This document shows, one piece after another, positions 3,743-23,397 of a DNA stretch of 32,222 bases (position 1 is the stretch's first letter; the number at the start of each line of letters is the position of its first letter). The DNA is from an uncultured bacterium. Its GTDB lineage: Bacteria > Bacillota_I > Bacilli_A > RFN20 > CAG-826. Location of the stretch: positions 1 through 32,222 of the forward strand of contig CASFZJ010000018.1 of assembly GCA_949299165.1 (NCBI GenBank), given 5' to 3'. The position numbers and the translations under genes are program-made. A model generated the notes under the pieces. That model was not told the origin of the DNA, did not search any database, and was given only the letters and a program-made list of their open reading frames with translations.

Positions 3743-4378
3743 ATGACGAAAAATCAAGTTCAAATCAATAAAATTTGTTTAGCTGCTATATTTTTAGCTT
3801 TAGGTTGGTTATTACCTTTTTTAACAGGTCAAATTCCTGAAATTGGGAGCATGCTCTTGCCAATGCATATTCCTGTTTTCTTAGCTGGATTCATCTTAGG
3901 TCCATGTTATGGCGCTTTAATTGGTTTTATCACACCATTAACTAGATCATTAATTTTTGGTATGCCACCAATTTATCCAACTGCGCTTGCAATGTCTTTT
4001 GAACTTCTAAGTTATGGATTTATTAGTGGTGCAATGTTTATTTTCTTAACGAAATACATTAAAAAAATACCAACTATCGCAAATGTTTATATTTCTTTAG
4101 TTACCGCAATGGTTTTAGGGAGATTTATTTGGGCTTTCTTTGATTATTTATTTTTAATAGGAAGCGATAATCCATTTACATTCATGGTTTTTGCAAATGG
4201 AGCCTATATTAATGCATGGCCAGGAATTTTATTACAATTAGTACTTATTCCTGCAATTGTTCAACTCTTATATTCATTTAATTTAGTTCAACATTTATTA
4301 CCTGATTATGCAAAAGTTTTCAAAAGAAGAAACGTTAAACAAGATAATACAGAAAATCCAACAAATAATAACAACTAA
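3743..4378 (+). CDS. ECF transporter S component (substrate-binding membrane subunit)
   Basis: A 211-residue membrane protein with about six hydrophobic helices, an N-terminal QINKICLAAIFLALGWLLP and the segment LPMHIPVFLAGFILGPCYGA. These are typical of energy-coupling-factor S components that bind vitamins or nucleoside-like compounds. No EcfA/EcfT genes are nearby, so it probably uses a shared (group II) ECF module encoded elsewhere. The last 22 residues are polar and asparagine-rich. A GGAG site supports the ATG. The 3' end overlaps the next gene, a small kinase, by 71 bases. A transporter-kinase pair suggests phosphorylation traps the imported compound. The substrate is not readable from sequence. 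Confidence 0.85.
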   Translation: MTKNQVQINKICLAAIFLALGWLLPFLTGQIPEIGSMLLPMHIPVFLAGFILGPCYGALIGFITPLTRSLIFGMPPIYPTALAMSFELLSYGFISGAMFIFLTKYIKKIPTIANVYISLVTAMVLGRFIWAFFDYLFLIGSDNPFTFMVFANGAYINAWPGILLQLVLIPAIVQLLYSFNLVQHLLPDYAKVFKRRNVKQDNTENPTNNNN

Positions 4379-4886
4379 CGGACAATGCGTAATCGCAATT
4401 GACGGAATGTGCGCTAGCGGAAAATCTACGCTTGCTTTTGAGCTAGCTGAAAAATTTAATTCTAGAATCATTCATATGGATGATTTTTATGAGCCAAGAG
4501 GACACATTGATCTTTCAACAAGCGTAAATGGAAACATAAATTTAGAAAGATTTAAAAACGAAATCGTAACACGTTTGAACGAAAGTGAATTAACTTATAA
4601 TGTATTTTCGTGTGCTGAACAAAAAATTGTAAGCTCCACAATCTTAGGAAAACGTGATTTAACTATTGTTGAAGGCAGTTATTCAACAAATCCATACTTT
4701 AAAAAGTACTATAATTTTGCAATTTTCCTGGAAATTTCAAAAAAAGTCCAAGAAAATCGAATAAAGACCAGAAATTTTCAAAATTTCCAGGATTTTTTAA
4801 ATAAATGGGTAGTTTTAGAAAATAGATATTTTGATTTTTTCGATATCAAAAGTAAGGCAGATTTCATCATCGAAAATGATTTATAG
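4308..4886 (+). CDS. Uridine kinase-like P-loop kinase
   Basis: A 192-residue P-loop protein: Walker A GMCASGKST at 33-41, an HMDDFYEPRG segment resembling the substrate-binding region of uridine/pantothenate kinase-like enzymes, and an EGSYSTN strand later. The length matches small nucleoside-kinase-like proteins. The ATG at 4308 lies inside the preceding gene in another frame. No other ATG/GTG/TTG lies between it and the P-loop, and about 30 residues before the P-loop are normal for this family, so the overlap seems real. There is no ribosome binding site, so it likely depends on translational coupling to the ECF gene. It probably phosphorylates the compound the S component imports; the substrate is unknown. 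Confidence 0.75.
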   Translation: MQKFSKEETLNKIIQKIQQIITTNGQCVIAIDGMCASGKSTLAFELAEKFNSRIIHMDDFYEPRGHIDLSTSVNGNINLERFKNEIVTRLNESELTYNVFSCAEQKIVSSTILGKRDLTIVEGSYSTNPYFKKYYNFAIFLEISKKVQENRIKTRNFQNFQDFLNKWVVLENRYFDFFDIKSKADFIIENDL

Positions 4887-4899
4887 TTTCGAATGAAAG
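4887..4899. promoter_or_regulatory. Possible operator TTTCGAATGAAAG (also a weak terminator)
   Basis: The same 13-mer occurs at 17675-17687 upstream of the class II aldolase gene. Here it is followed by six T, so it could also act as a short terminator for the kinase gene. It lies about 115 bases before the start of the isomerase/racemase operon; its spacing to the aldolase gene is similar. The mirror sequence CTTTCATT recurs at 5006-5013, abutting the GTG start. Confidence 0.4.
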
Positions 4900-4960
4900 T
4901 TTTTTAATTTATATTCATAATTAAATTTGCATTTTTTATAAAGTTTATATTTTTATTATG

Positions 4961-4988
4961 TTGATTTAGCATTTAAATAGTTTAAAAT
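4961..4988 (+). promoter_or_regulatory. Putative promoter of the isomerase/racemase/ABC operon
   Basis: TTGATT (4961-4966), 16 bases, TAAAAT (4983-4988). The predicted start is near 4995, and AAGGG at 5001-5005 serves the GTG at 5014. Confidence 0.4.
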
Positions 4989-5013
4989 TTAAGTAAATGT
5001 AAGGGCTTTCATT

Positions 5014-5826
5014 GTGAAAAAAATATATTTAAATTTGAAAAGATTCGATATACCAGCTAGTTTCGATGGTATAAACAAGACACGGAAAAACGAAACTTAT
5101 GGAAAAGAAATCACTGAAGGAATTGAAAAAATGAATCTTTCACTTCCTGTGACAATATTTTTTCAAGAAGCAAACCTTTTAAGTGCTTTAAGCGCAAACA
5201 AAAATGTTCATATTGGTTGTCAAAGCGTTCACTATCAAGATGTAAGTAAAGGTGGAAATTTTGGCGCCTTCACAACATTTAGAACAGCTAAATCAATGAG
5301 AGGTATTGGAGTTAGCGATACACTTATTGGCCACTGTGAAGAAAGAAATTATCTTAATTATCTTTTTGCTCAAGCAGGCGGACAAGGTGATATCAATAAA
5401 ATCTTAAATGAAGAAATTAAACGCGCTCAAGAAGCTGGTTTAGAAGTCTTATATTGTATTGGTGAGAAAGCCGAAGAACAAGATCACAAATATGAGGTTC
5501 TTAGACATCAACTCGAAGTAGGTTTAGAGGGGGTTGATTTAAGTAAAATTACAATTGCTTATGAACCTGTTTGGGCTATCGGACCTGGAAAAGTACCTCC
5601 AGGAAGAGAATATATAGAAGATATAGCAAAATTTGTTAAATCTGTTGTTAACGTCCCCGTAGTTTACGGCGGCGGATTAAAAATAGAAAACGCTGAAATG
5701 ATTGCGTCAATTCCTGAAGTTGATGGTGGACTCATTGCGTTAACAAAATTTGGTGCAGACTTTGGATTCACCTTAGAAGATTTTGAAAAAATCGTATTAA
5801 CTTATGAGAAAGGACTAAAAAAATGA
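5014..5826 (+). CDS. Triosephosphate isomerase paralogue (TIM-barrel sugar-phosphate isomerase)
   Basis: 270 residues with the TIM fold and its catalytic set: N7 and K9 (NLK), H107 (GHCEER) and E184 (AYEPVWAIG). Standard TIM reads GHSERR, so the motif is slightly changed. The phosphate-gripping loops differ more: YGGGLK (218-223) in place of the usual YGGSV, and LIALTKF (240-246) where TIM has a GG-containing loop 8. Members of this fold also isomerise tetrulose phosphates (EryH), so a non-triose substrate is plausible. GTG start, chosen for the AAGGG site 8 bases upstream. It is the first gene of an operon with a LarA-like and a NagB-like gene, and its stop overlaps the next start (ATGA). 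Fold and chemistry are sure; substrate is not. Confidence 0.85.
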   Translation: MKKIYLNLKRFDIPASFDGINKTRKNETYGKEITEGIEKMNLSLPVTIFFQEANLLSALSANKNVHIGCQSVHYQDVSKGGNFGAFTTFRTAKSMRGIGVSDTLIGHCEERNYLNYLFAQAGGQGDINKILNEEIKRAQEAGLEVLYCIGEKAEEQDHKYEVLRHQLEVGLEGVDLSKITIAYEPVWAIGPGKVPPGREYIEDIAKFVKSVVNVPVVYGGGLKIENAEMIASIPEVDGGLIALTKFGADFGFTLEDFEKIVLTYEKGLKK

Positions 5827-7256
5827 AAGTTAAATTAGAATACGGCGATGGTCAAGTAGATGTTGAAGTCCCAGAGGGAAGTGACGTATTTGAAACTGGC
5901 GTTACTGTAAAAGATCCTGAAGGAATTAAAGATGTCAAAAAAGCCACTTTAGAAGCTATTCGTAATCCAATGGATATGAAACCAATTAGTGAACTTGTTC
6001 ACAAAGGTAGCAAAGTCACTATTGTTTTCCCTGATAAAGTTAAAGGTGGATTCCAAGATGATTCACACCGTAAAACATCAATTCCTCTAATCATCGATGA
6101 ATGCTTAAAATATGGTGTTGAAGAAAAAGATATCTTACTTATTTGTTCCAATGGTTTACATAGAAAGAACAAACCAGATGAAATTAGACATATTTTAGGT
6201 GATGCTATCTTTGATAGATTTTATCCAAAAGGACAAATTATCAATCATGATAGTGAAGACTGGGATCATTTAGTTGATTGTGGAAATGAACCTAAGTATG
6301 GCGCAAAAGTCGTTATGAACAAATATGTTTATGATAGCGATATTTGTTTCTTAATTGGGCACGCTCAAGGAAATCCTTATGGTGGATATAGTGGTGGATA
6401 TAAACATTGCGCTACTGGTATCTCCAACTGGGAATGTATCTCTTCCCATCACTGTCCAGCAGTTATGCATAGAGATGACTTTGTTCCAGTCACATCACAT
6501 TCATTAATGAGAAAGAAATTTGATGCAATTGGTGAATGGATGGAACACAGCATGGGTAAAAAATTCTTCTGTGTTGATGCTGTTTTAGATTCATTCTCAC
6601 ATCAAATCGCAGTTTATGCTGGTGAAGCCCATAGAGTTCAAGAAGAATCTTGGAAGATTGCTGATAAGAGAACATATGTTCACTGGGCAAAGAAAAAATA
6701 CGATGTTTTAATCTTTGGGTTACCAAATGATTTCCAATATGGTACAAGACAAGGTAGAAACCCAATTCTTGTTGAACAAGCAATTTCTGCTCAAGTTGTT
6801 AGACTTAAGAGAGTTATGAGCGAAAAACCTGTTATTATTGCTCTTGCTCAATGTGATGGTGATTTTGGTGATGAAGAATTCCCAGCAATGAAAGATGTTT
6901 ATGAATATTTCCAAAAACATGGTAATACACTTCCTGAAGTCGAAAGCTATTACGATGAAATGGATACTAAAAAATATATTGAAATGTATAGACATCACTA
7001 TGCATTCCACCCATATCATGCTTTCTCAATGATCTCCTGTGCACATATTGCTGAAAGAGATTGTGCAGCAGTTTACATTGTTGGAGCAAAAGATCCTGGC
7101 ACAGCTCGTGGAATGGGTATGAAAACAAGAAGCACAGTTATGGAAGCTTTCAATGATGCAAAGAAATTTGTTGGAGACAAACCAAACGTTCTTGTTTTAC
7201 CAATGACATTCAAGAGACCATCAGTACATCTTTGTATGGAGGATGACAAAGAATGA
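5823..7256 (+). CDS. LarA-family (nickel-pincer) racemase/epimerase homologue
   Basis: 477 residues of the lactate racemase LarA/DUF2088 family. Recognisable are GLHRKN with H113, the IGHAQGNPYGGYSGGYK segment with H180 and K194 (position of the lysine that anchors the nickel-pincer nucleotide in LarA), and a histidine-rich stretch SSHHCPAVMH after it. The usual D-x-T-R of LarA is FPDKVK here, and the protein is about 50 residues longer than LarA, so it belongs to a divergent branch. Characterised relatives racemise or epimerise 2-hydroxy acids. The cofactor needs LarB, LarC and LarE, none of which is in this window. The start overlaps the TIM-like gene (ATGA) and the end overlaps the NagB-like gene (ATGA), implying translational coupling. 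The substrate is unknown. Confidence 0.8.
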   Translation: MKVKLEYGDGQVDVEVPEGSDVFETGVTVKDPEGIKDVKKATLEAIRNPMDMKPISELVHKGSKVTIVFPDKVKGGFQDDSHRKTSIPLIIDECLKYGVEEKDILLICSNGLHRKNKPDEIRHILGDAIFDRFYPKGQIINHDSEDWDHLVDCGNEPKYGAKVVMNKYVYDSDICFLIGHAQGNPYGGYSGGYKHCATGISNWECISSHHCPAVMHRDDFVPVTSHSLMRKKFDAIGEWMEHSMGKKFFCVDAVLDSFSHQIAVYAGEAHRVQEESWKIADKRTYVHWAKKKYDVLIFGLPNDFQYGTRQGRNPILVEQAISAQVVRLKRVMSEKPVIIALAQCDGDFGDEEFPAMKDVYEYFQKHGNTLPEVESYYDEMDTKKYIEMYRHHYAFHPYHAFSMISCAHIAERDCAAVYIVGAKDPGTARGMGMKTRSTVMEAFNDAKKFVGDKPNVLVLPMTFKRPSVHLCMEDDKE

Positions 7257-8071
7257 CAGAAGAAATTTTAAAGATTAAGGGTGAAGATATCAAAAAAGGT
7301 AAAGTCCCTGTTGATATCTATAAAGATAAAGAAGGTGCGTTTTCTGGAATGGCTGACATGATGGTTGAAGCTATTAAAGAAAATAACAAACTTGGGAAAA
7401 GAACTTTATTTATTTGTCCTCTTGGACCAATCGGTCAATATAAATATTTTGCAAAAAGAGTGAATTCTGAAAGGATTTCACTTAAAAACGTTACTTTTAT
7501 CAACATGGATGAATACATGTTAGATGAAAAAACAATTTGTGGAACAGACTATAAATTGTCATTTAAAAAGACAATGTATGAACTCTGCTATAATAAAATC
7601 GATGAAGATTTAATTATGCCGGAGTCGCAAAGAATCTTCCCAACATTAGATAACGCCGACTATATCGATCAAGTAATTGAAGATCATGGTGGAGTTGATA
7701 TCTGCTTTGGTGGAATTGGTATTACAGGTCATATGGCTTTCAATGAACCACCAGAAGAAGACGAAAAAGTTAGTGAAGAAGAATTTGTAAATTCAAGAAC
7801 TAGAGTGGTAAAGATTAGTAGAGAAACTAGAGTCGTTAATTCATTTGATGATTTTGATGGCGCTTATCCACTTGTTCCTAAATATGCCGTGACTATCGGA
7901 TTAAAAGAAATCCTTGGAGCAAAAAAAGTGCGATTATTCTGCTTCAGACCATGGCATAAATACGTTGTAAGACGTGCAGCATTCGGAGATTGTTCAATTG
8001 ATTTCCCTGCTTCATTATTACAAAAACATCCAGATGCTAGGATAGGAATCAGCGAAGAACTCGCTGAGTAG
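7253..8071 (+). CDS. NagB-like sugar-phosphate isomerase/deaminase
   Basis: 272 residues of the glucosamine-6-phosphate deaminase/6-phosphogluconolactonase superfamily. NMDEY (84-88) carries the general base, and GHMAFNEPP (159-167) carries H160 and E165. The Asp two residues before that His, present in true NagB (the D-G-H motif), is Thr158 here, and the C-terminal part FCFRPWHKYVVRR is unlike NagB. It may therefore isomerise a related aminated or non-aminated sugar phosphate rather than deaminate glucosamine-6-phosphate. GGAGG at 7238-7242 supports the ATG, which overlaps the racemase-like gene. Encoded with nagA, a PFK-family kinase and an aldolase nearby, it probably forms the isomerase step of the route. 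Confidence 0.8.
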   Translation: MTEEILKIKGEDIKKGKVPVDIYKDKEGAFSGMADMMVEAIKENNKLGKRTLFICPLGPIGQYKYFAKRVNSERISLKNVTFINMDEYMLDEKTICGTDYKLSFKKTMYELCYNKIDEDLIMPESQRIFPTLDNADYIDQVIEDHGGVDICFGGIGITGHMAFNEPPEEDEKVSEEEFVNSRTRVVKISRETRVVNSFDDFDGAYPLVPKYAVTIGLKEILGAKKVRLFCFRPWHKYVVRRAAFGDCSIDFPASLLQKHPDARIGISEELAE

Positions 8072-8081
8072 GGAGATATAT

Positions 8082-9050
8082 ATGAAGGATAAAAAATCTA
8101 ATGCTTTTCTTGATTTCTTCAAGAACATCGAGAAAAAGCGGGATGACTTCAAACTTAAAAGAGCTGAAGCAAAAAAAGTTAAACAACAAAACAGCGCTTT
8201 TGAGAAAGAAGTTCAATCCATTGACGTTTATGAGTTGACAAGACCATATAACGACCCAAACAAAACAGGGAATATTAAGGTGCGTGATTTTACTCCTTGG
8301 GACCGTTGGAAAAATTTACTTGTCGGACTCGTCGCAGTTATTGCGTTCTTCGTTCTTTGGTGGCTCATTACTGTAATTGACCCAACATTGACATCTATGA
8401 TTTCTTCTCCACAACTTGTTTGGGATAGTTTTTATAGATATGGAATCGAAAGCAACTTCTTGTGGATCCACTTGGGTTGGTCTCTTTCTAGAATTTTAAT
8501 CGGTTATGCTATAGCAACAGTTACTTCAATTATTGTTGCCTTCTTAATGGCATGGTATAAACCATTTAGAGCGATAATCGATCCATTTATTCAATTCTTA
8601 AGATGTATCCCACCACTAGCTTACATCACAATTGTTATTGTTGTATTAGGAACAGATGAACAATCAAAATACTTTGTTATTTGGATGGCATGTTTCTTAA
8701 GTATGACAGTTACAATTTATCAAGGTATTAGAAATGTTGATATGACATTAATCAAAGCATCATATACATTTGGCGCAAAAGATAAAGATTTATTTATTGA
8801 TGTTATGATGCCATCTAGCTTCCCATTTATTTTAACAGCTATGAGACTTGGTGTTGGTATTGCGTTAACAACATTAATTGCTGCTGAATTAACTGGTGGT
8901 AGTTTAGGTTTCGGTGCTTTCGTTAATAACCAAATGGGTACTTTAAACGTTAACAATGCTTTAATGGGCGTATTTGTCATTGGAATTGTTGGTATCGTTA
9001 TGGATAAAATACTACTTTTAGTAGAAAAACGTCTTACACGCTGGAAATAA
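8082..9050 (+). CDS. ABC transporter permease, TauC/SsuC type
   Basis: 322 residues. The C-terminal 240 form a BPD_transp_1 permease with about six helices and the cytoplasmic EAA-like loop IKASYTFGAKDKDLFIDVMMP that docks on the ATPase. The best family match is the nitrate/sulfonate/taurine (TauC/SsuC) group. Unusual is a charged N-terminal extension of about 75 residues (KNIEKKRDDFKLKRAEAKKV onward), predicted cytoplasmic and helical, not part of typical TauC. GGGAG at 8071-8075. It lies 10 bases after the NagB-like gene and 10 before the ATPase, so it is one operon with the catabolic enzymes; substrate inferred only from them. Confidence 0.88.
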   Translation: MKDKKSNAFLDFFKNIEKKRDDFKLKRAEAKKVKQQNSAFEKEVQSIDVYELTRPYNDPNKTGNIKVRDFTPWDRWKNLLVGLVAVIAFFVLWWLITVIDPTLTSMISSPQLVWDSFYRYGIESNFLWIHLGWSLSRILIGYAIATVTSIIVAFLMAWYKPFRAIIDPFIQFLRCIPPLAYITIVIVVLGTDEQSKYFVIWMACFLSMTVTIYQGIRNVDMTLIKASYTFGAKDKDLFIDVMMPSSFPFILTAMRLGVGIALTTLIAAELTGGSLGFGAFVNNQMGTLNVNNALMGVFVIGIVGIVMDKILLLVEKRLTRWK

Positions 9051-9060
9051 GGAGTGATTT

Positions 9061-9969
9061 ATGGAAAACAATAACGATGTAATTATTAAAATTGACCACG
9101 TAAGAAAAGTTTATACACCAGAAAATCGTCCTGAAGTTGTTGCGTTGAAAGATGTTGAACTCGAAATCAAACGTAATGAATTCATATGTGTCGTTGGACC
9201 ATCAGGATGTGGCAAAACAACTTTATTAAATATTATTGCTGGTCTTGAAAAACCAACTAGCGGTAAAGCTTATATTGAAGGAAGAGAAATCGTTGGACCT
9301 GGCCCAGATAGAGGAGTCATTTTCCAACAATATGCATTATTCCCTTGGTTAACAGTTAAGAAAAATGTTCTTTATGGAACAAAATTTATTAGACATTTAG
9401 CCCCTGTTTATAAGAAAAACAAAGAAACAGGAAAAATGGAACAAGTTTTCGAAAAAGACGAAAATGGTAATGTTACTGATAAACCATTAATGAAACCGGT
9501 TCGTTATAGTAAAGCTGAAAGAGAAGCTATTGCTAGAAAATATATCAAAATGGTTAGACTTGACGCTTTTGAAAATTCATATCCTAAAGAATTATCTGGT
9601 GGTATGAAACAAAGAGTCGCTATTGCTAGAGGATATGCATTAAACAGTGATGTCCTTTTACTCGATGAACCATTTGGTGCTCTTGATGCTCAAACTAGAT
9701 CACAACTTCAAGAAGACTTATTAAAAACTTGGGAAAAAGAAAGAAAAACATGTTTCTTTATTACTCATGATACTGATGAAGCTGTTTTGTTGGCTACAAA
9801 AGTCATTATTATGTCGGCTAGACCAGGTGTGGTTAAAGAAATCATTCCAATTGATTTACCTTTCCCAAGAAGCCAAGCTACAAAACTCGATCCTAAATTT
9901 ATTGAATACAGAAATCACATTTGGGATGTAGTTTACAAAATGTATCTTGCACAAGATCAAATTAAATAA
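9061..9969 (+). CDS. ABC transporter ATPase, TauB/SsuB type
   Basis: 302 residues with all ATPase motifs: Walker A GPSGCGKTT (46-54), Q-loop FQQYALFPW (88-96), signature LSGGMKQR (178-185), Walker B VLLLDEP (198-204), D-loop GALD and switch H236. It groups with the TauB/SsuB/NrtD importers. Compared with usual TauB (about 250-260 residues) it has an insertion of about 40 residues between Q-loop and signature (roughly 111-150: acidic and lysine-rich, KNKETGKMEQVFEKDENG), in the helical subdomain. AGGAG precedes the ATG. It powers the permease upstream. Confidence 0.92.
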   Translation: MENNNDVIIKIDHVRKVYTPENRPEVVALKDVELEIKRNEFICVVGPSGCGKTTLLNIIAGLEKPTSGKAYIEGREIVGPGPDRGVIFQQYALFPWLTVKKNVLYGTKFIRHLAPVYKKNKETGKMEQVFEKDENGNVTDKPLMKPVRYSKAEREAIARKYIKMVRLDAFENSYPKELSGGMKQRVAIARGYALNSDVLLLDEPFGALDAQTRSQLQEDLLKTWEKERKTCFFITHDTDEAVLLATKVIIMSARPGVVKEIIPIDLPFPRSQATKLDPKFIEYRNHIWDVVYKMYLAQDQIK

Positions 9970-9972
9970 AAT

Positions 9973-10000
9973 TACAAATAAATTTGTATTTTATAATAAA
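9973..10000 (+). other. Small intercistronic stem-loop
   Basis: TACAAAT (9973-9979) and ATTTGTA (9982-9988) form a short hairpin followed by TTTTATAATAAAA. It may stabilise or partly separate expression of the binding-protein gene, which usually needs excess copies. The TATAAT inside could also be an internal -10. Weak. Confidence 0.3.
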
Positions 10001-10020
10001 AATTAAAAAAAGGAGACTAT

Positions 10021-11175
10021 ATGAAAAAAACTAAATTATTCGGTTTATTAGCGGTTGGTTTATTATCAGTCGCTGGCGTTGCAAGCTGTGGCAATGACAA
10101 TCCAAACCCTACCCCAGGCGGCGACACTACAGGTTATACTGTCAGAATGGGTTTGCAAAATAACATGGGTGGAGCTTGTGGTACTGTTGCTTACACAGAA
10201 GGTTTCTTCGAAGACGAAGGCGTTAGTGTAACACAACAAGTTTTAGGCGGACCAGTTATTGCTCAAAACTTATTACAAGGACAACTTGATGTTGGTTTCT
10301 TAGGAAACGGTGTCGCATGGAACTATTTCACCGCAGATTCAAAAATTAAAATTGTTGCTATTGATAACATTACAGATGATGATAGATTATTAGCAAATCC
10401 AAATAGTGAAAAAGCTAAAAATTTACCAGCAGCTGACGGAAAATTAGATAACTATGAACAATTAGCAGATGCATTAGCAGGTGCAAACGTTTTATTTAAC
10501 CCAACAACAACTCCTGCAACATTCTTCTCATCATTAGTTACTGAAATTAACTCACATTTAGAAGATTCTGAAAGAATTTGGTGGGAATCAGCAAATGTTA
10601 AATTACCTGCAACAGGGATTACAGCTTATTCACAAGATAGAAAAATTAATGTTGACAACAACATTACTGAAGCAAATATGGCCGCCTCATTAAGAAGTGG
10701 TAATTATGACTTTGCAGTTGCTTTTGGTAACGCTGCAAGTACAATCCAAACAACTTTAAATTATAAGATTGTTGGTAGAACTTCATCCCATTTAAGCACT
10801 GATAAGATTGTCCCTTCAACATGGGCAGTTAATACAGACTTTGCTGCTGCACATCCAACTGAATTTGCTAAATTTATGAAAGGTTTAGTTAGAGGCATGG
10901 ATTTCAGACACGATGATCCAAGCAAAACTGCAGATGCTGTTGTCGAAGTTTTAAATCACACTGTTGAAAAAGAGACAATTGACCTTAACCCAGGTTATTG
11001 GCCAACAAGAGAAGATCAATTAGATTATATTAAAGACGGTGGAATCGCTTATACTTATGTTGAAAATATTAGAAATAACCATTTAGGTGGCGACAACAAA
11101 GATAAGATTGTTAAAACCGCTGCTGAAGCTGCTGACTTCTCATACTTAAAGACAGCTTGTGAAGCACTTGCTTAA
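10021..11175 (+). CDS. ABC transporter substrate-binding lipoprotein, SsuA/TauA/NMT1-like
   Basis: 384 residues. A signal peptide with lipobox VASC (Cys24) is followed by a proline/glycine linker, then a periplasmic-binding-protein type II domain. YTVRMGLQNNMGGACGTVAYTEGFFEDEGVSV and LLQGQLDVGFLGNGVAWNYF are typical of the SsuA/TauA/Thi5-like group that binds sulfonates, nitrate, aliphatic acids or thiamine precursors. It is attached to the outer face of the membrane. AAGGAG supports the ATG. It is the last gene of the operon and is followed by a terminator. The ligand cannot be read; its class suggests a small anionic or aminated compound, and the gene context a sugar-derived one. Confidence 0.88.
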   Translation: MKKTKLFGLLAVGLLSVAGVASCGNDNPNPTPGGDTTGYTVRMGLQNNMGGACGTVAYTEGFFEDEGVSVTQQVLGGPVIAQNLLQGQLDVGFLGNGVAWNYFTADSKIKIVAIDNITDDDRLLANPNSEKAKNLPAADGKLDNYEQLADALAGANVLFNPTTTPATFFSSLVTEINSHLEDSERIWWESANVKLPATGITAYSQDRKINVDNNITEANMAASLRSGNYDFAVAFGNAASTIQTTLNYKIVGRTSSHLSTDKIVPSTWAVNTDFAAAHPTEFAKFMKGLVRGMDFRHDDPSKTADAVVEVLNHTVEKETIDLNPGYWPTREDQLDYIKDGGIAYTYVENIRNNHLGGDNKDKIVKTAAEAADFSYLKTACEALA

Positions 11176-11185
11176 TTACCAATTT

Positions 11186-11210
11186 AAGGTAGGCCAAACG
11201 CCTACCTTTT
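11186..11210 (+). terminator. Terminator of the ABC/catabolic operon
   Basis: AAGGTAGGC (11186-11194), five-base loop, GCCTACCTT (11200-11208), then T. It begins 10 bases after the binding-protein stop. Confidence 0.85.
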
Positions 11211-11355: not shown

Positions 11356-12198
11356 TTATGCTAATGCAATTCCTGATTTAATTATTAAGTAAATATTGAT
11401 TAAAATGATTGCGACAGTAGTTGCCATATAAACAATTTGAACGCCTTTATTATTCATTTCCTTGTTTAACCAAGTTCCAAGAAGTGATCCAATAATTGAA
11501 ACAGGAACAAGGATGATTAAAAATATCCACCAAGATTGATCGGCAGGAGATGGAAGTGCATCAATTGTAAATAATGTTACAAAAGTTCCATCAATTCCAG
11601 CCATTACAATTTTAGCCATTTGAGAGAAAATAATTGTAATAAGCGAGTTTATAGCTGCTTGCTTCATACTCATTCCAAAGAATAATAAAAGAACAGCAAC
11701 GTTAATTGGTCCGCCTCCAATTCCTAAGAATGTAGAGCAAACACCAAGGAAAATACCGATAATTATTGTAACAATGAAATTGTTAATATGCATAACTTTT
11801 CCTTTTGGAAGGAAAATTTGCATATAAATAAGAACAAATATTAATAAAGCAATTAAGATTGATGATTGAATAATAATTAAGACATCGCCATTCGATGAGT
11901 CTTTAACAAATTGGAACAAGAATTGTCCAACAACCCCCCCAACAACAGCGCCAATTCCCAAATAAACGGCTGTTTTCCGATTTTCAATCTTACTTTTAGA
12001 AGCAATATGACGAATGATTGAAGTGGAAGTTCCAAAAACAACACACATTGTTGAAATCATATTAGTGATTTCAGGGGTTTCAAAATAACCGAAGGCATCA
12101 AGTACAGGTCTTATAATAACCCCACCGCCTATACCTGCAATTGCCCCAATAATAGATGCAATAATAACTACTATTGGAAAAATAAAATAATAAACCAT
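11356..12198 (-). CDS. TSUP-family (TauE/SafE, DUF81) permease
   Basis: About 280 residues with the two repeated glycine-rich motifs of the family: IGAIAGIGGGVIIRPVLDAF at the first helix and FLGVCSTFLGIGGGPINVAV at mid-protein. About eight membrane helices. Family members move sulfite, sulfonates or other organic acids, often outward; in sulfoglycolysis loci they export the C3 sulfonate. An upstream ATG at 12228 would add ten residues (MLSFVLQYEC). Neither start has a clear ribosome site. I prefer 12198 because it matches family N-termini and leaves the AACGAAA element (12218-12224) in the leader. It is divergent from the DeoR gene and so probably part of the same regulon. Confidence 0.85.
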   Translation of the reverse strand: MVYYFIFPIVVIIASIIGAIAGIGGGVIIRPVLDAFGYFETPEITNMISTMCVVFGTSTSIIRHIASKSKIENRKTAVYLGIGAVVGGVVGQFLFQFVKDSSNGDVLIIIQSSILIALLIFVLIYMQIFLPKGKVMHINNFIVTIIIGIFLGVCSTFLGIGGGPINVAVLLLFFGMSMKQAAINSLITIIFSQMAKIVMAGIDGTFVTLFTIDALPSPADQSWWIFLIILVPVSIIGSLLGTWLNKEMNNKGVQIVYMATTVAIILINIYLIIKSGIALA

Positions 12199-12247
12199 AC
12201 ATTCATATTGTAGAACAAACGAAAGCATTTATAAATAAAAAGTATTA

Positions 12248-12277: not shown

Positions 12278-12328
12278 AGAAAGTGGGCAAAAATTTCCTA
12301 GGAATTTTTAAAAAAGTGCACTTTTACT

Positions 12329-12369
12329 CTTTCGTTTTGGTTGATAAAACGAAAGTTTTAGCGTATAAT
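12329..12369 (+). promoter_or_regulatory. DeoR operator over the regulator's own promoter
   Basis: CTTTCGTTTT (12329-12338) and AAAACGAAAG (12346-12355) are a perfect 10-bp inverted repeat with a 7-base spacer. The promoter is TTGATA (12341-12346), 17 bases, TATAAT (12364-12369), so the palindrome covers the -35 box. DeoR-family sugar regulators commonly bind TTTCGTT-like repeats, which makes autorepression likely. Confidence 0.75.
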
Positions 12370-12389: not shown

Positions 12390-13145
12390 ATGAAGATTAA
12401 TAAAAGACAAGGTGAAATTGTTGAACTTGTAGATAATGAAAAGCAAGTTACAGTTAAAGAATTATCAGAAAAACTTGGCGTAAGCGAAGTTACAATCAGA
12501 AAAGATTTAGATGTTTTGAGTGAATATGGAATTTTAATACGTCATCATGGTTATGCACTAAAAAAGAATACAGCTGATATCACGAATCGTTTATCAATTA
12601 ACTACGAAACTAAATGTAAAATTGCTAAAAAAGCTAATTCTTTAATTGGTTTTAATGAAACAATTTTAATTGGTAGTGGTTCAACTTGTGCTTTACTTGC
12701 CGAGGAAATAGTAAAAACAAAGCCAAGTGTCACAATTATTACTCATTCAATTTATATTGCTGAACACGCTTCAAAACTTGGAAATAATAAAATTATTTTA
12801 CTTGGTGGAGAATATCAACCAGATGCTCAAGTTATGGTAGGACCATTAGTTAGATCATCAGTTAGACAATATTATGTAGATAAAATATTTTTAGGAACTG
12901 ATGGATTTGTTAAAAATGTTGGCTTTATGGGAAGTGACGTTTTAAGAACAGAAGCAATTAAAAATATGGCTGAAAGTGCCAGAAATGTAATTATTCTTAC
13001 TGATTCATCGAAATTTTCTAAAAGAGGTCTTTTAGTACAATTTTCACAAAAAGAGCCATCTCGAATTATTACAGATCGCAAAATTCCTGAAGATTACCTT
13101 GAATTCTTTAAAGCAATTGGTGTGCCCTTAACAATTGTTGATTAA
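12390..13145 (+). CDS. DeoR-family transcriptional regulator
   Basis: 251 residues. The N-terminal winged helix is typical (KRQGEIVELVDNEKQVTVKELSEKLGVSEVTIRKDLDVLSEYGIL, with the recognition helix in VSEVTIRKDL). It is followed by the DeoR sensor domain, an isomerase-like fold that binds sugar phosphates (IGSGSTCALLAEEI, LLGGEYQPDAQVMVGP, GTDGF, ILTDSSKF). AGGAG at 12377-12381 supports the ATG. It sits amid the sugar genes, and its probable operators occur before itself, the TSUP gene, the epimerase/nagA pair and the aldolase. The effector is probably a phosphorylated intermediate of the pathway. The stop overlaps the convergent epimerase gene by four bases. Confidence 0.93.
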   Translation: MKINKRQGEIVELVDNEKQVTVKELSEKLGVSEVTIRKDLDVLSEYGILIRHHGYALKKNTADITNRLSINYETKCKIAKKANSLIGFNETILIGSGSTCALLAEEIVKTKPSVTIITHSIYIAEHASKLGNNKIILLGGEYQPDAQVMVGPLVRSSVRQYYVDKIFLGTDGFVKNVGFMGSDVLRTEAIKNMAESARNVIILTDSSKFSKRGLLVQFSQKEPSRIITDRKIPEDYLEFFKAIGVPLTIVD

Positions 13146-13984
13146 TCTTTATTATCAAAAGTTAAAGTATAGGAGAACGAGGCTTCCTCGTTCTTTTTTA
13201 ATGTATTTATAGCAATTCTTTTGCTCAAATCATTTGATTCATCTTTATAATTTGATATTCCCCACCATGGTTCGATGCAAACAAAATTTCCTTTATTTGG
13301 ATTTGACCAAATAGCAAAATATGGCGCATCAAATTTATAAGTAACACAAATATTTTTAACTCCTGTATAAAGTTCTAATTCTTCATTTTTTCCTTCAAAA
13401 ACTAAAGTATCGAGTTTTTTGAAGGATTCTTTCTTTAAATTAACGCAATTAAATAACATATTATCTTGGTTGTTTTGGTCAATAAGTCCGCAAATCAAAG
13501 GTAAAAGTTTATAATCTTTATCAAAATTAATTAACCCATTTTCTGGATACGCTCTTAATCCAGTGTGTGAGCCATATGAAAAATAGAGATCATTTTGACC
13601 TTCGTTTTTAATTTTGGTCTCGACTTTTAAAACATTATCAATAAGTTCATATGTCAAAGTAAAATCAAAGTGAAATGGATATTGAGTAAGGGTGTGTTCG
13701 TTAGCTTTTAAATTTAAAACAATTTTATTTTCTTTTTTCTCTAAGATGTCTAAATCTGTATTTCTTAAAAATCCATGTCGCATTTCGAGTTTATAATCTT
13801 TTTCTTGATATTTAAATTCTCCAGCACCAATTAAAGGAAAAATAACTACGTCTTGAAATGGCCAAGAATTTTCTTCGATTTGATATAAAAGCTCTTCATT
13901 TTCTTTTTTAAAGAAGATAGAAGTGAGATTTCCTCCTTTTAAATTGATACTAACTTTTAAGAAATTATTTTCGATTATTTCCAT
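13142..13984 (-). CDS. Aldose 1-epimerase (mutarotase)-like protein
   Basis: 280 residues of the galactose-mutarotase fold, closest to the LacX/YihR-like sugar-phosphate or sugar epimerases. Seen are FPLIGAGEF and MRHGFLRN near residues 50-75, the catalytic-type YGSHTGLRAY at mid-protein, and CIEPWWGISN, which carries the general-base Glu. It should interconvert the anomers of the imported sugar. An AAGGAAAGG site lies 9 bases before the ATG. It is divergent from nagA with a shared operator between them, and tail-to-tail with the DeoR gene. The DeoR gene's terminator is encoded within the last 60 bases of this gene. Confidence 0.85.
   Translation of the reverse strand: MEIIENNFLKVSINLKGGNLTSIFFKKENEELLYQIEENSWPFQDVVIFPLIGAGEFKYQEKDYKLEMRHGFLRNTDLDILEKKENKIVLNLKANEHTLTQYPFHFDFTLTYELIDNVLKVETKIKNEGQNDLYFSYGSHTGLRAYPENGLINFDKDYKLLPLICGLIDQNNQDNMLFNCVNLKKESFKKLDTLVFEGKNEELELYTGVKNICVTYKFDAPYFAIWSNPNKGNFVCIEPWWGISNYKDESNDLSKRIAINTLKKNEEASFSYTLTFDNKD
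13174..13199 (+). terminator. DeoR terminator inside the convergent epimerase gene
   Basis: AGAACGAGG (13174-13182), three-base loop, CCTCGTTCT (13186-13194), T run to 13199. On the other strand the same bases code for the epimerase C-terminus (KKNEEASFSY). Confidence 0.75.
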
Positions 13985-14004
13985 ATAAAATAGCCTTTCC
14001 TTTC

Positions 14005-14032
14005 TAACGAAACCTAATTGTGAATTTCGTTA
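14005..14032. promoter_or_regulatory. Probable DeoR operator between epimerase and nagA
   Basis: TAACGAAA (14005-14012) and TTTCGTTA (14025-14032) are a perfect 8-bp inverted repeat spaced by 12 bases. They share the AACGAAA core with the operator at 12329-12355. The site could control both divergent genes. Confidence 0.65.
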
Positions 14033-14101: not shown

Positions 14102-15229
14102 ATGAAGAAAGAATTTAAAAATATTAAAACTCTACTTGAGGGCGGTTATAAAACCGTCGATTTAGTGATTGAAGATGGAAAATTTTTAACAATTTCTGAA
14201 GCAAAAAAAGATGATAAAACTTATGAAGGAAAAATAATGATTCCTGGTTTTATTGACGAACACACCCATGGTGGTGATGGATATGATTTTTCAACTTGTA
14301 AATCGGTTGAAGAAATGGAAAAAATTCTCGCCTTTTATATTAAACATGGTGTAACTAGTGTTTTACCTACCTTACTTACTGAAAGAGACGAAGTAGTGTT
14401 TAAACAACTAGAACTTATTTATGAAACTAGTAAGAAAAATCCAATTATAAAAGGGGTACATTTAGAAGGTCCTTTCCTTTGTAAAGAATTTAAAGGAGCT
14501 CAACTTGAAAGTTGTCTTCAAAAGCCAACTCCTGAAAAAGCTAAAATTTTTATCGAAAAGTCACACAATTTATTAAAATTAATGACAATTGCACCAGAAA
14601 ATGAAGGTAGCGAAGAAACAATTGAATATTTAACAAAACACGGAGTAAAAGTTGCACTTGGTCATAGTGCCGCAACTTTTGATGATGCAACGCGAGCTTT
14701 AAAAGCTGGAGCAACAGACATCACTCATACATTTAATGCATCGAAAGGAATTCATCAACATTTCCCTTCGATTACAAGTGCTGCTTTATATCATGATGAT
14801 TTTTATTGTGAAGTTATCCTTGATGGAATTCACGTAAATCGTGAAATGGTTGAATGGATTAGAAAGATTAAAGGAAATAACAAAGTTATTGGTGTTACTG
14901 ATTCACTTATGGCGGCAGGTTTACCAGATGGAAATTATTTTATTGGCGAAACACCAATCACAGTTAAAAACCATGATTGCGTAATAACTGAAACAGGAGT
15001 AAGAGCAGGATCGACACTCGACATGAAAAGAGCGTTTGATAATGTAAAAGATTTCTGTAATATTGATGATTTAACAGCAAGTCAAATTTGTTCATTAAAC
15101 TGTGCAAAAATGCTTGGTATTGACGACAAAGTTGGCTCGATTAAAGAAGGTAAAAATGCAGATTTTATTATCTTAAACGATAAATATGAAATTGAAGAAG
15201 TATATATTAATGGGGAGAAAGTTTTATGA
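14102..15229 (+). CDS. nagA: N-acetylglucosamine-6-phosphate deacetylase
   Basis: 375 residues, the usual length for NagA. It has the amidohydrolase metal and catalytic residues in order: H54-x-H56 (DEHTHGG), E122 (HLEGPF), H188 (LGHSA), H209 (THTFNA), H244 (DGIHV) and D267 (GVTDSLMAAGLPDG). It removes acetate from an N-acetylhexosamine 6-phosphate in the cytoplasm. The stop overlaps the next gene (ATGATG), so it is coupled to a PFK-family gene. The partner deaminase in this locus is the NagB-like gene at 7253, which lacks the usual D-G-H aspartate, so the exact amino sugar may not be GlcNAc. Confidence 0.92.
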   Translation: MKKEFKNIKTLLEGGYKTVDLVIEDGKFLTISEAKKDDKTYEGKIMIPGFIDEHTHGGDGYDFSTCKSVEEMEKILAFYIKHGVTSVLPTLLTERDEVVFKQLELIYETSKKNPIIKGVHLEGPFLCKEFKGAQLESCLQKPTPEKAKIFIEKSHNLLKLMTIAPENEGSEETIEYLTKHGVKVALGHSAATFDDATRALKAGATDITHTFNASKGIHQHFPSITSAALYHDDFYCEVILDGIHVNREMVEWIRKIKGNNKVIGVTDSLMAAGLPDGNYFIGETPITVKNHDCVITETGVRAGSTLDMKRAFDNVKDFCNIDDLTASQICSLNCAKMLGIDDKVGSIKEGKNADFIILNDKYEIEEVYINGEKVL

Positions 15230-16386
15230 TGAAAAACGTAATTATTGCTCACGGAGGAGCACCAACTGCTGTTATTAATGCATCCTTATATGGAGCGATT
15301 AAAGAACTTAAAGAAAGCGGATTTGATGGAAAAATTCTAGCACCAAGATTTGGATCGGATGGTCTTTATAATGAAGATTTTATCGATTTATCAAATCTAT
15401 CAGATCACGATTTGGAAGTGTTGAAAGAGACTCCAGGGAGTGCAATTGGTAGTTCTAGATTCCCACTTTATGAAAAAGAATACAAAAAGATTGTTCAAAT
15501 TTTAGTTAAACACAATATCGGCTATGTTCTCTTTACTGGTGGAAACGGAACAATGGATACCATTGGAAACATCTATAAATATGCTAAAGCAGAAGGGGTT
15601 GAAGTAACTTGTGTTGGTATTCCAAAAACTATCGATAATGATATTGGTGTAACGGATCATGCTCCTGGTTTTGCAAGTTGTGCTAATTACATTGCTCAAA
15701 CTGTCGCAAGCTGTGCACAAGACGTTAAAGGTCTTCCAATTCACGTTTCAGTAATTGAAGTTATGGGAAGAAATGCTGGTTGGCTTGCTGCAAGCAGCGC
15801 ACTTGCAAGAAAAAATATAGGTGATGCGCCACATTTAATTTATTTCCCTGAAATTCCTTTTGATGAACAAGAATTCTTAGATGACGTCAAAAAAGCTTGG
15901 GAAAAAAGACATGGTGTAGTTGTTGTTTGCAGTGAAGGATTAAAATATGCTGATGGCACACCAATTGTAAAACCAATTTTCAAAACCGAAAGAGCTACTT
16001 ACTTTGGTGATGTTTCAACTCATTTAGCAACGCTTATTATTGAAAAACTTGGAATAAAAGCCAGAAGTGAAAAACCAGGTTTAATTTGCCGTTGTGATAG
16101 AAGCTTAGTTTCTAAAGTTGATCAAGATGAAGCAGTATTGATGGGAAGAACAGCAATTAAAGCAGCTTTAAATAAGACAAATGGGGTTATGGCTGGAATT
16201 AAGAGAATTTCAACCAATCCATATAAGATTGAACCTATTTTAATACCTATTGAAAAAGTCATGATGACTGAAGCAACTTTCCCATTAAAATACATTAAAG
16301 ATAAACATGATGTTATAGATGAGTTTATTGAATGGTTAAAACCACTAGTCAATGAAATTCCTGAAAATATTAGCTTTTTAGACTAA
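15226..16386 (+). CDS. Phosphofructokinase-family enzyme (ATP or PPi donor unresolved)
   Basis: 386 residues with the PfkA fold: NVIIAHGGAPTAVIN at the start, TGGNGTMDT (104-112), PKTIDNDIG (133-141) with the catalytic Asp, VIEVMGRNAGWLA, and a substrate region ending in KPGLICRCDRS. PPi-dependent enzymes typically have a lysine in P-K-T-I-D-N-D, as here, and an aspartate after GG-D/N. ATP enzymes have Gly at that second position, as here (G108). The mixed pattern leaves the phosphoryl donor open. It phosphorylates fructose-6-phosphate or a related ketose phosphate to make the aldolase substrate. Co-transcribed with nagA; two adjacent ATGs (15226, 15229) follow GGGGAG. Confidence 0.85.
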   Translation: MMKNVIIAHGGAPTAVINASLYGAIKELKESGFDGKILAPRFGSDGLYNEDFIDLSNLSDHDLEVLKETPGSAIGSSRFPLYEKEYKKIVQILVKHNIGYVLFTGGNGTMDTIGNIYKYAKAEGVEVTCVGIPKTIDNDIGVTDHAPGFASCANYIAQTVASCAQDVKGLPIHVSVIEVMGRNAGWLAASSALARKNIGDAPHLIYFPEIPFDEQEFLDDVKKAWEKRHGVVVVCSEGLKYADGTPIVKPIFKTERATYFGDVSTHLATLIIEKLGIKARSEKPGLICRCDRSLVSKVDQDEAVLMGRTAIKAALNKTNGVMAGIKRISTNPYKIEPILIPIEKVMMTEATFPLKYIKDKHDVIDEFIEWLKPLVNEIPENISFLD

Positions 16387-16463: not shown

Positions 16464-17564
16464 TTATTTATAGATGTAATAAGCATCACCAACGGAACCA
16501 AATTCAACATTAGCTGTTAAAACAATTTCTTTAACTGCTTTTTCCATTAATGGAATGAGTTCTTTGATTTCGCCAGTGATATTTTTGTTTGTTTCTAATT
16601 CGTTAATATATTCTTTTAAATAATATCTATATTCGAATGAATCTCTCTTTTCGATTAAGAGTGGATAAACTTTACTTCCTTCTTTCTTTTCTGGATTATT
16701 TTCGAAGTATTCTAACATATTTCTTGTTGTTGCAAGTCTAATGTCGGTATCCATATTAATCTTTGAAATACCACTTGGAATAACTTCTTTTAATTGTTCA
16801 ATTGGGATACCATGTCCTTTAACTGCTCCACCAAGAGCATTAATTTCGTTTACGATATATTGAGGAACTAAACTAGAACCATGTGAGACTAAAACAGCAT
16901 CAATATTTTCGTGTCTCATATTTTCCATTGTTGCAATAACGATTTCTTTTCTTAATTGAACATTATCGCCTTTAACTGCACCATGTTTTGTGCCATAAGA
17001 AATAGCTAATAAATCACAACCAGTTCTCTTTAAGAAATCAACTGCAGTAATTGGGTTTGTGTAAGTTGAATTAGCAGCGAAAACATGATCTTCAACACCA
17101 GCTAAAACACCAAGTTCAGCTTCAACAGATGCGCCATGTTTATGAGCATATGCAACAACTTTCTTTGTTTGAGCGACGTTTTCTTCATATTCTAATGCAC
17201 TTCCATCGATCATAACACTGTTGAATCCAGCATTTACACAGATTTTACATGTTTCAAAACTTCTACCATGGTCAAGGTGAAGTGAAACAGGAATAAATGT
17301 TTTTTCAGCTAATTTCTTGACATAAGCAGCAATTCTTTTTGCACCTAATTTCTTTTCTTCCATTGTTCCATGGATGAAATCAGGATTTCCTCCAATATAA
17401 GCAAGTCCAGGTTCAGCAACTTGAATGATAGCTGCACAACGCAATTCTTCGCAAGCTTCGATTATAGCTTTTGCTTGGCAAAGTGCGTTAACGTTAAAAG
17501 CACCATGAGCAATCTTATGATCACGTGCATACTTTAAAATCTCTTTTGATTGTATGTATGGCAT
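16464..17564 (-). CDS. fba: Class II fructose-bisphosphate aldolase family protein
   Basis: 366 residues. Class II motifs are clear: AHGAFNVN (19-26), the zinc/catalytic HLDHG (96-100), VMIDGSALEYEENV, VEAELG, SYGTKHGAVKG and VSHGSS, plus a phosphate loop KINMDTDIRLA. It is about 80 residues longer than GatY/FbaA-type short enzymes, mainly in a C-terminal extension after the barrel (FEYRYYLKEYINELETN onward). It splits a ketose bisphosphate into two trioses. GGAGG precedes the ATG. The gene faces the nagA-pfk unit and carries operator-like elements upstream, so it probably belongs to the DeoR regulon. Substrate could be fructose- or tagatose-bisphosphate or a relative. Confidence 0.88.
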   Translation of the reverse strand: MPYIQSKEILKYARDHKIAHGAFNVNALCQAKAIIEACEELRCAAIIQVAEPGLAYIGGNPDFIHGTMEEKKLGAKRIAAYVKKLAEKTFIPVSLHLDHGRSFETCKICVNAGFNSVMIDGSALEYEENVAQTKKVVAYAHKHGASVEAELGVLAGVEDHVFAANSTYTNPITAVDFLKRTGCDLLAISYGTKHGAVKGDNVQLRKEIVIATMENMRHENIDAVLVSHGSSLVPQYIVNEINALGGAVKGHGIPIEQLKEVIPSGISKINMDTDIRLATTRNMLEYFENNPEKKEGSKVYPLLIEKRDSFEYRYYLKEYINELETNKNITGEIKELIPLMEKAVKEIVLTANVEFGSVGDAYYIYK

Positions 17565-17632: not shown

Positions 17633-17690
17633 TAACGAAAACTTGTGTTTCTATTTCATTAAAATGTGATTTTCTTTCGAATGAAAGAAA
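17633..17690. promoter_or_regulatory. Operator-like elements upstream of the aldolase gene
   Basis: TAACGAAA (17633-17640) matches one arm of the nagA operator. At 17671-17690 lies the perfect inverted repeat TTTCTTTC-GAAT-GAAAGAAA, which contains the 13-mer also found at 4887-4899. A possible minus-strand -10 TAGAAT is at 17614-17609. Confidence 0.5.
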
Positions 17691-22175: not shown

Positions 22176-22562
22176 TTAAAGTTCTTTAACCCAAAGTCCA
22201 TGAAGATTGCAGTATTCATAAACTTTTAATGGTTTTTCATCTTCTCCAACAGTAAAAGTCCATTCTGGTGCATCAGTGAAAGCGAAATCATGTCTTCTGA
22301 TTTCTCTATCGGTTACAAGATAAACAAATGAGATGTGGTGTGCTTCTGTCATTGGGTGAGCAACACTTCCGATTTGTACATGGACTTTGTTGCCGTCAAT
22401 TGTTACAGCTGGAACGTGTTTTTCTAAAGCAGCATCCTTTGTATTTGCAACAAGTTCAGTCATAGGTTCCCCGCAGCACATAGTTGCGCAGCCATGAGTA
22501 TTAGGTAATTTTTCTACGATTTTACCGCAATGTTTGCAAAATAATAATTTAATATCTTCCAT
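22176..22562 (-). CDS. Desulfoferrodoxin (two-iron superoxide reductase)
   Basis: 128 residues. The N-terminal desulforedoxin domain has its four cysteines C9, C12, C29, C30 (CKHC, MCC). The superoxide reductase domain has E47, H49 (EKHVP), H69, H75, C118 and H121 (YCNLHGLW), the full catalytic iron set. It reduces superoxide to peroxide without making O2, typical of anaerobes. GGAGAA upstream supports the ATG. A single gene between a terminator and a divergent AlkD-like gene. Confidence 0.95.
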   Translation of the reverse strand: MEDIKLLFCKHCGKIVEKLPNTHGCATMCCGEPMTELVANTKDAALEKHVPAVTIDGNKVHVQIGSVAHPMTEAHHISFVYLVTDREIRRHDFAFTDAPEWTFTVGEDEKPLKVYEYCNLHGLWVKEL

Positions 22563-22634
22563 TTAAGTTATTCTCCTTTACTAATATTTTATCTTTTTTA
22601 GGAATTTTTTCTATTTCTATGTTAATCTAAAACT

Positions 22635-23324: not shown

Positions 23325-23350
23325 TTTTAATTTCTATATGTATTAAATGT

Positions 23351-23394
23351 AAAAATACCTCTTGGTTTTGCTATAATCTTAACAAGAGGTTTTT
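23351..23394 (+). promoter_or_regulatory. Overlapping terminator, promoter and ribosome site
   Basis: ACCTCTTG (23357-23364) and CAAGAGGT (23383-23390) form a perfect stem followed by TTTTT: a terminator for the AlkD gene. The loop holds TATAAT (23372-23377), and the right arm holds AAGAGG, the ribosome site for the ATG at 23398. Transcripts starting near 23384 would lack the left arm and leave the ribosome site free. Confidence 0.6.
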
Positions 23395-23397
23395 ATT

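Follow-up and report, generated by a model that had tools for sequence, protein, structure and literature searches.

Why would an operon of sugar- and hydroxy-acid-type enzymes carry an importer of the sulfonate type? The question is raised by a six-gene operon at positions 5014 to 11175 of a 32,222-nucleotide stretch of DNA (hereafter, the window), which is contig CASFZJ010000018.1 (C18) in the 1.43-Mb, 98.4% complete genome of an uncultured Bacillota_I bacterium (assembly GCA_949299165.1, lineage CAG-826). An earlier description, termed here the sequence-only reading, reported a triosephosphate isomerase (TIM) paralogue, a LarA-type racemase, a NagB-like isomerase and a TauABC-type importer, and considered the importer to be at odds with the enzymes. 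There is probably no such mismatch. The operon is half of a larger unit, which runs on to 17564 and holds a complete paralogous glycolytic route with rebuilt C6-phosphate sites. Because such rebuilding is expected for a sulfo-type sugar, a sulfonate-type importer probably matches these enzymes. To judge from the encoded proteins, the gene set looks like amino-sugar catabolism and upper glycolysis duplicated for a C6-modified sugar. With slightly more than even confidence, we propose that the cluster serves the catabolism of an N-acetyl-hexosamine whose C6 bears a non-phosphate anion. A sulfate ester (N-acetylglucosamine-6-sulfate) is the most likely candidate for this group, and a C6 sulfonate a less likely one. 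The features of the unit are as follows.

5014..5826, + strand: TIM paralogue (PF00121, 120.7 bits)
5823..7256, + strand: LarA homologue of the single-histidine (Asn184) subfamily (Lar_N PF09861, 121.7 bits)
7253..8071, + strand: NagB-like deaminase/isomerase (TIGR00502, 100.8 bits, under the equivalog cut-off)
8082..9050, + strand: ATP-binding cassette (ABC) importer permease, TauC type (PF00528; top NCBIfam model TauC, under cut-off)
9061..9969, + strand: ABC importer ATPase, TauB/NtrCD type (PF00005; TIGR01184, 250 bits, under cut-off)
10021..11175, + strand: substrate-binding lipoprotein, SsuA/TauA/NMT1 fold (TIGR01728, PF09084; AlphaFold model)
11186..11208, + strand: terminator-like hairpin closing the six-gene unit (-14 kcal/mol, z -5.2; T run after the stem short)
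11356..12228, - strand: TauE/SafE-family exporter (PF01925)
12325..12357, no strand: TTTCGTTT-N-AAAACGAAA, an inverted repeat that may be the operator for the DeoR-type regulator (direct reading)
12390..13145, + strand: DeoR-family regulator (PF00455, PF08220)
13142..13984, - strand: aldose-1-epimerase-like protein, probable sugar mutarotase (PF01263)
14102..15229, + strand: NagA paralogue (TIGR00221, above cut-off)
15226..16386, + strand: phosphofructokinase (PFK) paralogue, PRK14072 group (NF010675, above cut-off)
16464..17564, - strand: class II fructose-bisphosphate-aldolase paralogue (PF01116, NF005481)

The compact layout attributed to the first six genes is borne out. Their open reading frames lie on the + strand, with 4-base overlaps (ATGA) at both the TIM/LarA and LarA/NagB junctions, and with gaps of 10 bases between NagB and permease, 10 between permease and ATPase, and 51 between ATPase and binding protein. 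Profile matches agree with the families assigned (PF00121, PF09861, TIGR00502 and TauC/TauB/SsuA types). The single terminator placed at the end of the operon is present as a strong hairpin, although its T run is merely short. The six genes do form an operon, but not the whole unit, since the genes for TauE, DeoR, the aldose-1-epimerase-like protein, NagA, PFK and aldolase continue to 17564. The full unit thus encodes NagA, NagB, PFK, aldolase, TIM and LarA together with the TauABC-type importer.

Do these genes belong together? A scan of genome contigs with a LarA alignment matched at least 596 stretches, of which 559 were confirmed and the best 80 were kept as loci (numbered with the prefix L below). 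Their hosts include Lachnospiraceae, Spirochaetales, Desulfosporosinus and others. When the window genus is grouped as one, 58 LarA lineages can be counted; because some clusters are truncated at a locus end, the lineage counts are lower bounds. The neighbours are TIM (56 lineages), PFK (43), aldolase (39), a LacI regulator (37), NagA (32), NagB (24), a phosphoglucose isomerase (PGI)-like protein (15) and an aldose-1-epimerase-like protein (13). Importer genes are also recurrent: the ATPase accompanies LarA in 31 lineages, the permease in 24 and a binding protein of one type in 20. A sensor kinase (20) and a response regulator (19) recur as well. In 67 of 75 loci, the TIM gene precedes LarA by no more than 700 bases. 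The same gene set recurs around LarA within the window genus, for which 25 other genomes (G001-G025) were compared with the window genome. A full-length TIM paralogue of at least 59% identity is present in exactly the 17 of these 25 that have LarA, and the window genome is the eighteenth; in G007, which lacks LarA, the TIM paralogue match is only partial. TIM, LarA and NagB therefore co-occur in other genomes, as the sequence-only reading required. Its view of TIM as a paralogue also holds, since an ordinary TIM is encoded elsewhere in the genome.

What distinguishes these enzymes from their ordinary counterparts? Cluster proteins were aligned with Escherichia coli K-12 TpiA, NagB, NagA, PfkA, FbaA and Pgi (loci L104-L107), and aligned residues were assigned the catalytic or C6-phosphate roles generally attributed to them. 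Nearly all catalytic residues are retained. The cluster TIM retains H95 and E167 (72/72) and the N-x-K motif (68/72); NagB retains D72 and H143 (both 41/41), with N or T in place of D141; NagA retains the metal and catalytic residues H195, H216 and D273 (45/45); PFK retains D127 (56/56); and the aldolase retains D109, H110, H226 and H264 (36/36), and its metal and dihydroxyacetone phosphate (DHAP) sites are intact.

The phosphate contacts are a different matter. Loops 6, 7 and 8 of the cluster TIM are rebuilt (GPG, YGGGLK and IALTK): GTG of loop 6 has become GPG and S211 has become G (each 72/72), and GG of loop 8 has become A-L (69/72 and 72/72; G233 to L in 72/72). In NagB, the TGGT loop is two residues shorter (41/41), K208 is replaced by H (41/41), and R172 is absent from nearly all 41 sequences, with G or D in its place in most. 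The phosphate-binding R227 of NagA is H in 45/45, R162 of PFK is H in 56/56, and S61 of the aldolase is A in 34/34, with a conserved insertion alongside. The PGI-like paralogue has A for S207 and N or D for T209 (14/14). Overall, the canonical C6-phosphate residues of the Nag and glycolytic enzymes (NagA, NagB, aldolase and TIM) are replaced in nearly every cluster sequence. The window PFK paralogue (15226-16386) carries GGNGT, with the ATP-type Gly, alongside GIPKTIDND, with the pyrophosphate (PPi)-type Lys.

These replacements bear on whether the paralogues might simply be redundant copies of NagA, NagB, PFK, aldolase and TIM that act on normal phosphorylated intermediates. Such ordinary amino-sugar-phosphate catabolism would account for families and a gene order that resemble the Nag pathway plus glycolysis, and the cluster NagB is the only NagB found in the window genome. 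However, all six families have exchanged their C6-phosphate residues for others, whereas the same genome encodes, on other contigs, an ordinary TIM, an ordinary aldolase (VSEGA) and a PRK14072-type PFK (contig C21, with Arg) whose phosphate residues are intact. We therefore judge redundancy to be quite unlikely.

Loss of the contacts would by itself also fit a sugar with an unsubstituted C6, such as plain N-acetylglucosamine, glucose or a 6-deoxy sugar, metabolized by an unphosphorylated route in which fructose-1-phosphate would give DHAP plus either glyceraldehyde or lactaldehyde. This proposal appears improbable, given that the importer is of an anion type and that several of the former phosphate sites have new invariant basic residues nearby: K223 after YGGGL in TIM (72/72), R232 and K/R236 in NagB (41/41), and K/R215 in NagA (44/45). 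Because the C6-phosphate contacts have been lost and new conserved Lys or Arg residues have appeared, the hexose probably bears a C6 anion other than phosphate.

Which anion might this be? The importer, called TauABC-type in the sequence-only reading, is indeed of the TauA/SsuA class: permease, ATPase and binding protein all belong to the TauABC/SsuABC families, with sulfonate a putative ligand. For the binding protein of a sister cluster (L051), the closest solved homologue by sequence is TauA (E 7.5e-18). Its structural model (mean predicted local distance difference test score, pLDDT, 85.6) superimposes on TauA with Z 30.2 and a root-mean-square deviation of 2.6 over 288 residues, and the next four structural matches are SsuA entries (Z 27.2-27.8). 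The window binding protein gave nothing meaningful in a phmmer search against the PDB; its AlphaFold model (pLDDT 85) places SsuA and TauA first (Z 20.4), tied with CmpA and others. Because the best match of the sister protein is TauA, a sulfate ester or sulfonate is the likeliest C6 group. Between the two, our guess is the ester, because N-acetylglucosamine-6-sulfate is abundant and, to our knowledge, there is no natural 6-deoxy-6-sulfo-N-acetylglucosamine.

A carboxylate at C6 would likewise predict lost phosphate contacts and retained positive charge. In such a scheme N-acetylhexosaminuronic acids would be degraded, with uronates entering through the PGI-like enzyme; the aldolase would yield tartronate semialdehyde along with DHAP, and formation of hydroxypyruvate would fall to the TIM paralogue. 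The substrate of LarA would then be an alpha-hydroxy acid, the usual class for LarA enzymes (PMC7583248). However, the TauA/SsuA-type binding protein and TauE indicate sulfur, no uronate-type transporter is present among the recurrent annotated neighbour families, and this LarA lacks the second histidine required for two-way racemization. A carboxylate is thus unlikely.

If the substrate is an N-acetyl-hexosamine with a sulfur-containing C6 group, a reaction order can be proposed. The sugar would be taken up by the TauABC-type importer, deacetylated by the NagA-type enzyme, and deaminated and isomerized by the NagB-type enzyme to give a 6-substituted fructose. After C1 phosphorylation by the PFK-type enzyme, the class II aldolase would split the product into DHAP and a 3-substituted glyceraldehyde, and the C3 fragment would then be handled by TIM-type and LarA-type steps. 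Where TauE is present, it may export the sulfur product. In some relatives, the PGI-like paralogue could provide a second entry for a 6-substituted hexose. No PF00884 sulfatase was detected in the window genome, and neither GH20 nor sulfatase genes were present among 20 large cluster neighbours that were annotated. GH3 glycosidase genes occur near the cluster in L027, L088, L090 and L092 and are a possible source of free sugar.

What LarA contributes is the least certain part of this route. The window protein is 56-57% identical to LarA_Sp (Streptococcus) and LarA_Bw (Blautia), whose structures were solved in 2025 (PDB 9q2u, 9q3k and 9q3j; PMC12611868). By its residues, it is a member of the single-histidine LarA_Bw/LarA_Sp subfamily. 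The designation as a LarA-type racemase thus holds for the family but not for the activity of an ordinary racemase, as the second catalytic His is Asn (N184) in 75/75 loci while the first, H113, is kept. The lysine that binds the nickel-pincer nucleotide (NPN) cofactor (K194), H209 and the nickel ligand H210 are also present in 75/75, and D71, K74, Y306, H396 and H399 are equally invariant. At position 305, 57 of the 75 have His and the other 18 have Gln; these 18 include the window and match the window genus set in size. For LarA_Sp, lactate racemization was not detected, and a 316.5-Da adduct was observed (PMC12611868).

For the two final steps we offer a guess, which is the most speculative portion of the scheme. 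The TIM-type enzyme may eliminate the C6-derived group to yield methylglyoxal; TIM is known to catalyse such an elimination as a side reaction if its grip on phosphate fails. LarA, with a single histidine and NPN, might then shift hydride from the aldehyde hydrate to the ketone, yielding lactate. Because NPN would move the hydride within the hydrated ketoaldehyde, a single histidine would be enough.

An NPN-dependent LarA needs its cofactor. LarC is encoded in 30 of 47 cluster genomes. The other 17, which include L050, L051 and L057 and also isolate assemblies, have a LarA with all NPN cofactor residues and no LarC. In the window genome no PF01969 or TIGR00299 match to LarC was found, nor was one found in the relatives searched; the best LarE match in the window genome scores 19.5 bits against a cut-off of 150, the search having covered LarC and LarE. 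In L087 (Anaerobium acetethylicum), a gene for LarC, the nickel-insertion protein, lies at 4870-6510, close to the LarA cluster. Two further genes are pertinent.

3743..4378, + strand: energy-coupling factor (ECF) transporter substrate component, cluster-linked (PF12822)
4308..4886, + strand: small P-loop kinase, overlapping the ECF gene (PRK06547/PRK07667-like, weak)

This pair is directly upstream of the cluster in most loci of the window genus. It also occurs near LarA in L051 (3532-5206) and L097 (3162-4884), and in L071 an ECF component alone (9429-9989) lies between TIM and LarA; the window genus, L051 and L071 lack LarC. No match to the ECF component was found in any of the 30 LarC-positive loci. 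The pair is a possible lead for NPN salvage, not evidence of it. Genes after LarA in L052 and L054 were considered for the ECF set by size, and their sequences are not ECF-like.

Alternatively, the TauABC-type importer might bring NPN or a precursor, rather than a substrate, to an orphan LarA. The missing LarC and LarE would suit such a role, and the cofactor importer PqqT shares the binding-protein fold. However, importer genes are present in 14 of 30 genomes with LarC versus 11 of 17 without it (Fisher p 0.36), a comparison that does not support NPN import; the sister binding protein is closest to TauA, and the ECF component and kinase are the better salvage candidates. We regard cofactor import by this system as highly unlikely.

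A broader form of the sulfated-sugar proposal can be stated, to which we give low credence: sulfatase-independent glycolysis of sulfated amino sugars may be widespread in gut and sediment anaerobes. The C6 sulfate would be kept to the C3 stage. There, the TIM paralogue and single-histidine LarA would set the sulfur group free and complete the conversion of the carbon through a hydride shift within the molecule, and lineages without LarC would salvage the cofactor from neighbours.

Several observations weigh against a route for a C6-sulfur amino sugar. The role of LarA is left unexplained by any demonstrated step, and the window genome has no detected LarC or LarE. Only 9 of 58 lineages have TauE in the vicinity of LarA, and many loci have neither NagA nor NagB, or lack one of them, inside 10 kb. 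In the structural comparison of the window binding protein, SsuA and TauA tie with CmpA and with bicarbonate, nitrate and other binders. An Arg or Lys adjoining K208 of NagB might replace the function of K208, and the R162 position of PFK is less telling because Lys occupies it in related PPi-PFK structures. Finally, because the cluster sequences are related by descent, the residue and neighbour counts measure constraint and not independent origins.

How the locus might be regulated is suggested by TTTCG/CGAAA repeats. The copy at 12325-12357, before deoR, is a clear inverted repeat with similar copies in the other genus loci inspected. Less clear copies precede the TIM operon (4884-4900), nagA (13998-14030) and the aldolase gene (17671-17690); counts of CTTTCG upstream of genes are exploratory only. 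A sequence resembling a cre (catabolite-repression) site, TGTAAGGGCTTTCA or TGTAAGGGCTTACA, overlaps the TIM ribosome-binding region at 4998-5014 and at the corresponding position of genus loci. A promoter scan gave fewer matches than in shuffled sequence, and an Rfam search found tRNA only. Elsewhere in the window (22176-25218), genes for desulfoferrodoxin and a flavodiiron/flavin reductase/rubredoxin fusion protein form an oxygen-defence group of an anaerobe.

Is the system new? What is already known comprises the LarA subfamily, the solved structures and some of the gene context: TIM, NagB-type, aldolase, FBPase, PFK and GPI-type neighbours of LarA_Bw and LarA_Sp have been published (PMC12611868). 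The combination called undescribed by the sequence-only reading is thus in print as far as the TIM and NagB-type neighbours are concerned. Literature searches for the pathway, for N-acetylglucosamine-6-sulfate catabolism and for LarA with sulfosugars returned no description, within a coverage that mostly excludes subscription papers. As far as searched, the new elements are a paralogous pathway that is complete, phosphate contacts at C6 that have been lost in parallel across the enzymes, the assignment of the importer, and the absence of LarC from many hosts.

Sulfated mucin and keratan sulfate are built in part from N-acetylglucosamine-6-sulfate, and bacterial sulfoglycosidases release it. 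Bifidobacterium bifidum releases this sugar without assimilating it (review, PMC11186840), and the cluster is a concrete candidate for its consumption, with testable enzymes. If the proposal is true, a functionless LarA subfamily gains a pathway. Chemistry beyond racemization would, moreover, be new for a nickel-pincer enzyme. The loss of phosphate contacts, matched across six enzymes, may also serve as a signature for finding other glycolytic routes for non-phosphate sugars.

How does the cluster compare with known systems? Its LarA shares with LarA_Bw and LarA_Sp the Asn that replaces the second catalytic His, the NPN lysine, the nickel ligand, a conserved dimer Arg, and TIM and NagB-type neighbours; as a difference, 18 of 75 loci, including the window, have Gln where LarA_Sp has His306. 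The publication on those proteins presents structures and partial contexts, without a substrate or pathway (PMC12611868). The importer has the same three component families as TauABC/SsuABC systems, and the sister-cluster binding protein is closest to TauA, whereas that of the window is a divergent lineage. With N-acetylglucosamine-6-phosphate catabolism by NagA and NagB, the cluster has in common the enzyme families, the catalytic residues and a presumed reaction order; it differs in its replaced 6-phosphate-binding residues, its other importer, and its own PFK, aldolase and TIM.

The remaining parallel is with sulfoglycolysis of the Embden-Meyerhof-Parnas (EMP) type, which comprises sulfo-EMP (YihS/YihV/YihT) and sulfo-EMP2 (SqvD/SqiK/SqiA) (PMC12890257, PMC8873060). 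Sulfoglycolysis and the proposed route have in common the phosphorylation at C1 of a ketose whose C6 group is acidic, an aldolase that yields DHAP and a substituted C3 aldehyde, and, in some cases, TauE-type exporters. The cluster has the kinase and aldolase paralogues of such a route, with use of a 6-sulfo substrate being putative, and the NagB-like or PGI-like paralogues are candidates for the sulfosugar isomerase role. It differs in its entry through NagA and NagB (an amino sugar), its PRK14072-group PFK and a sulfur group that is inferred. No oxidoreductase is present among the recurrent neighbour families that were annotated. Whereas EMP-type sulfoglycolysis ends in a sulfolactaldehyde reductase or dehydrogenase, the proposed route would end in TIM and LarA.

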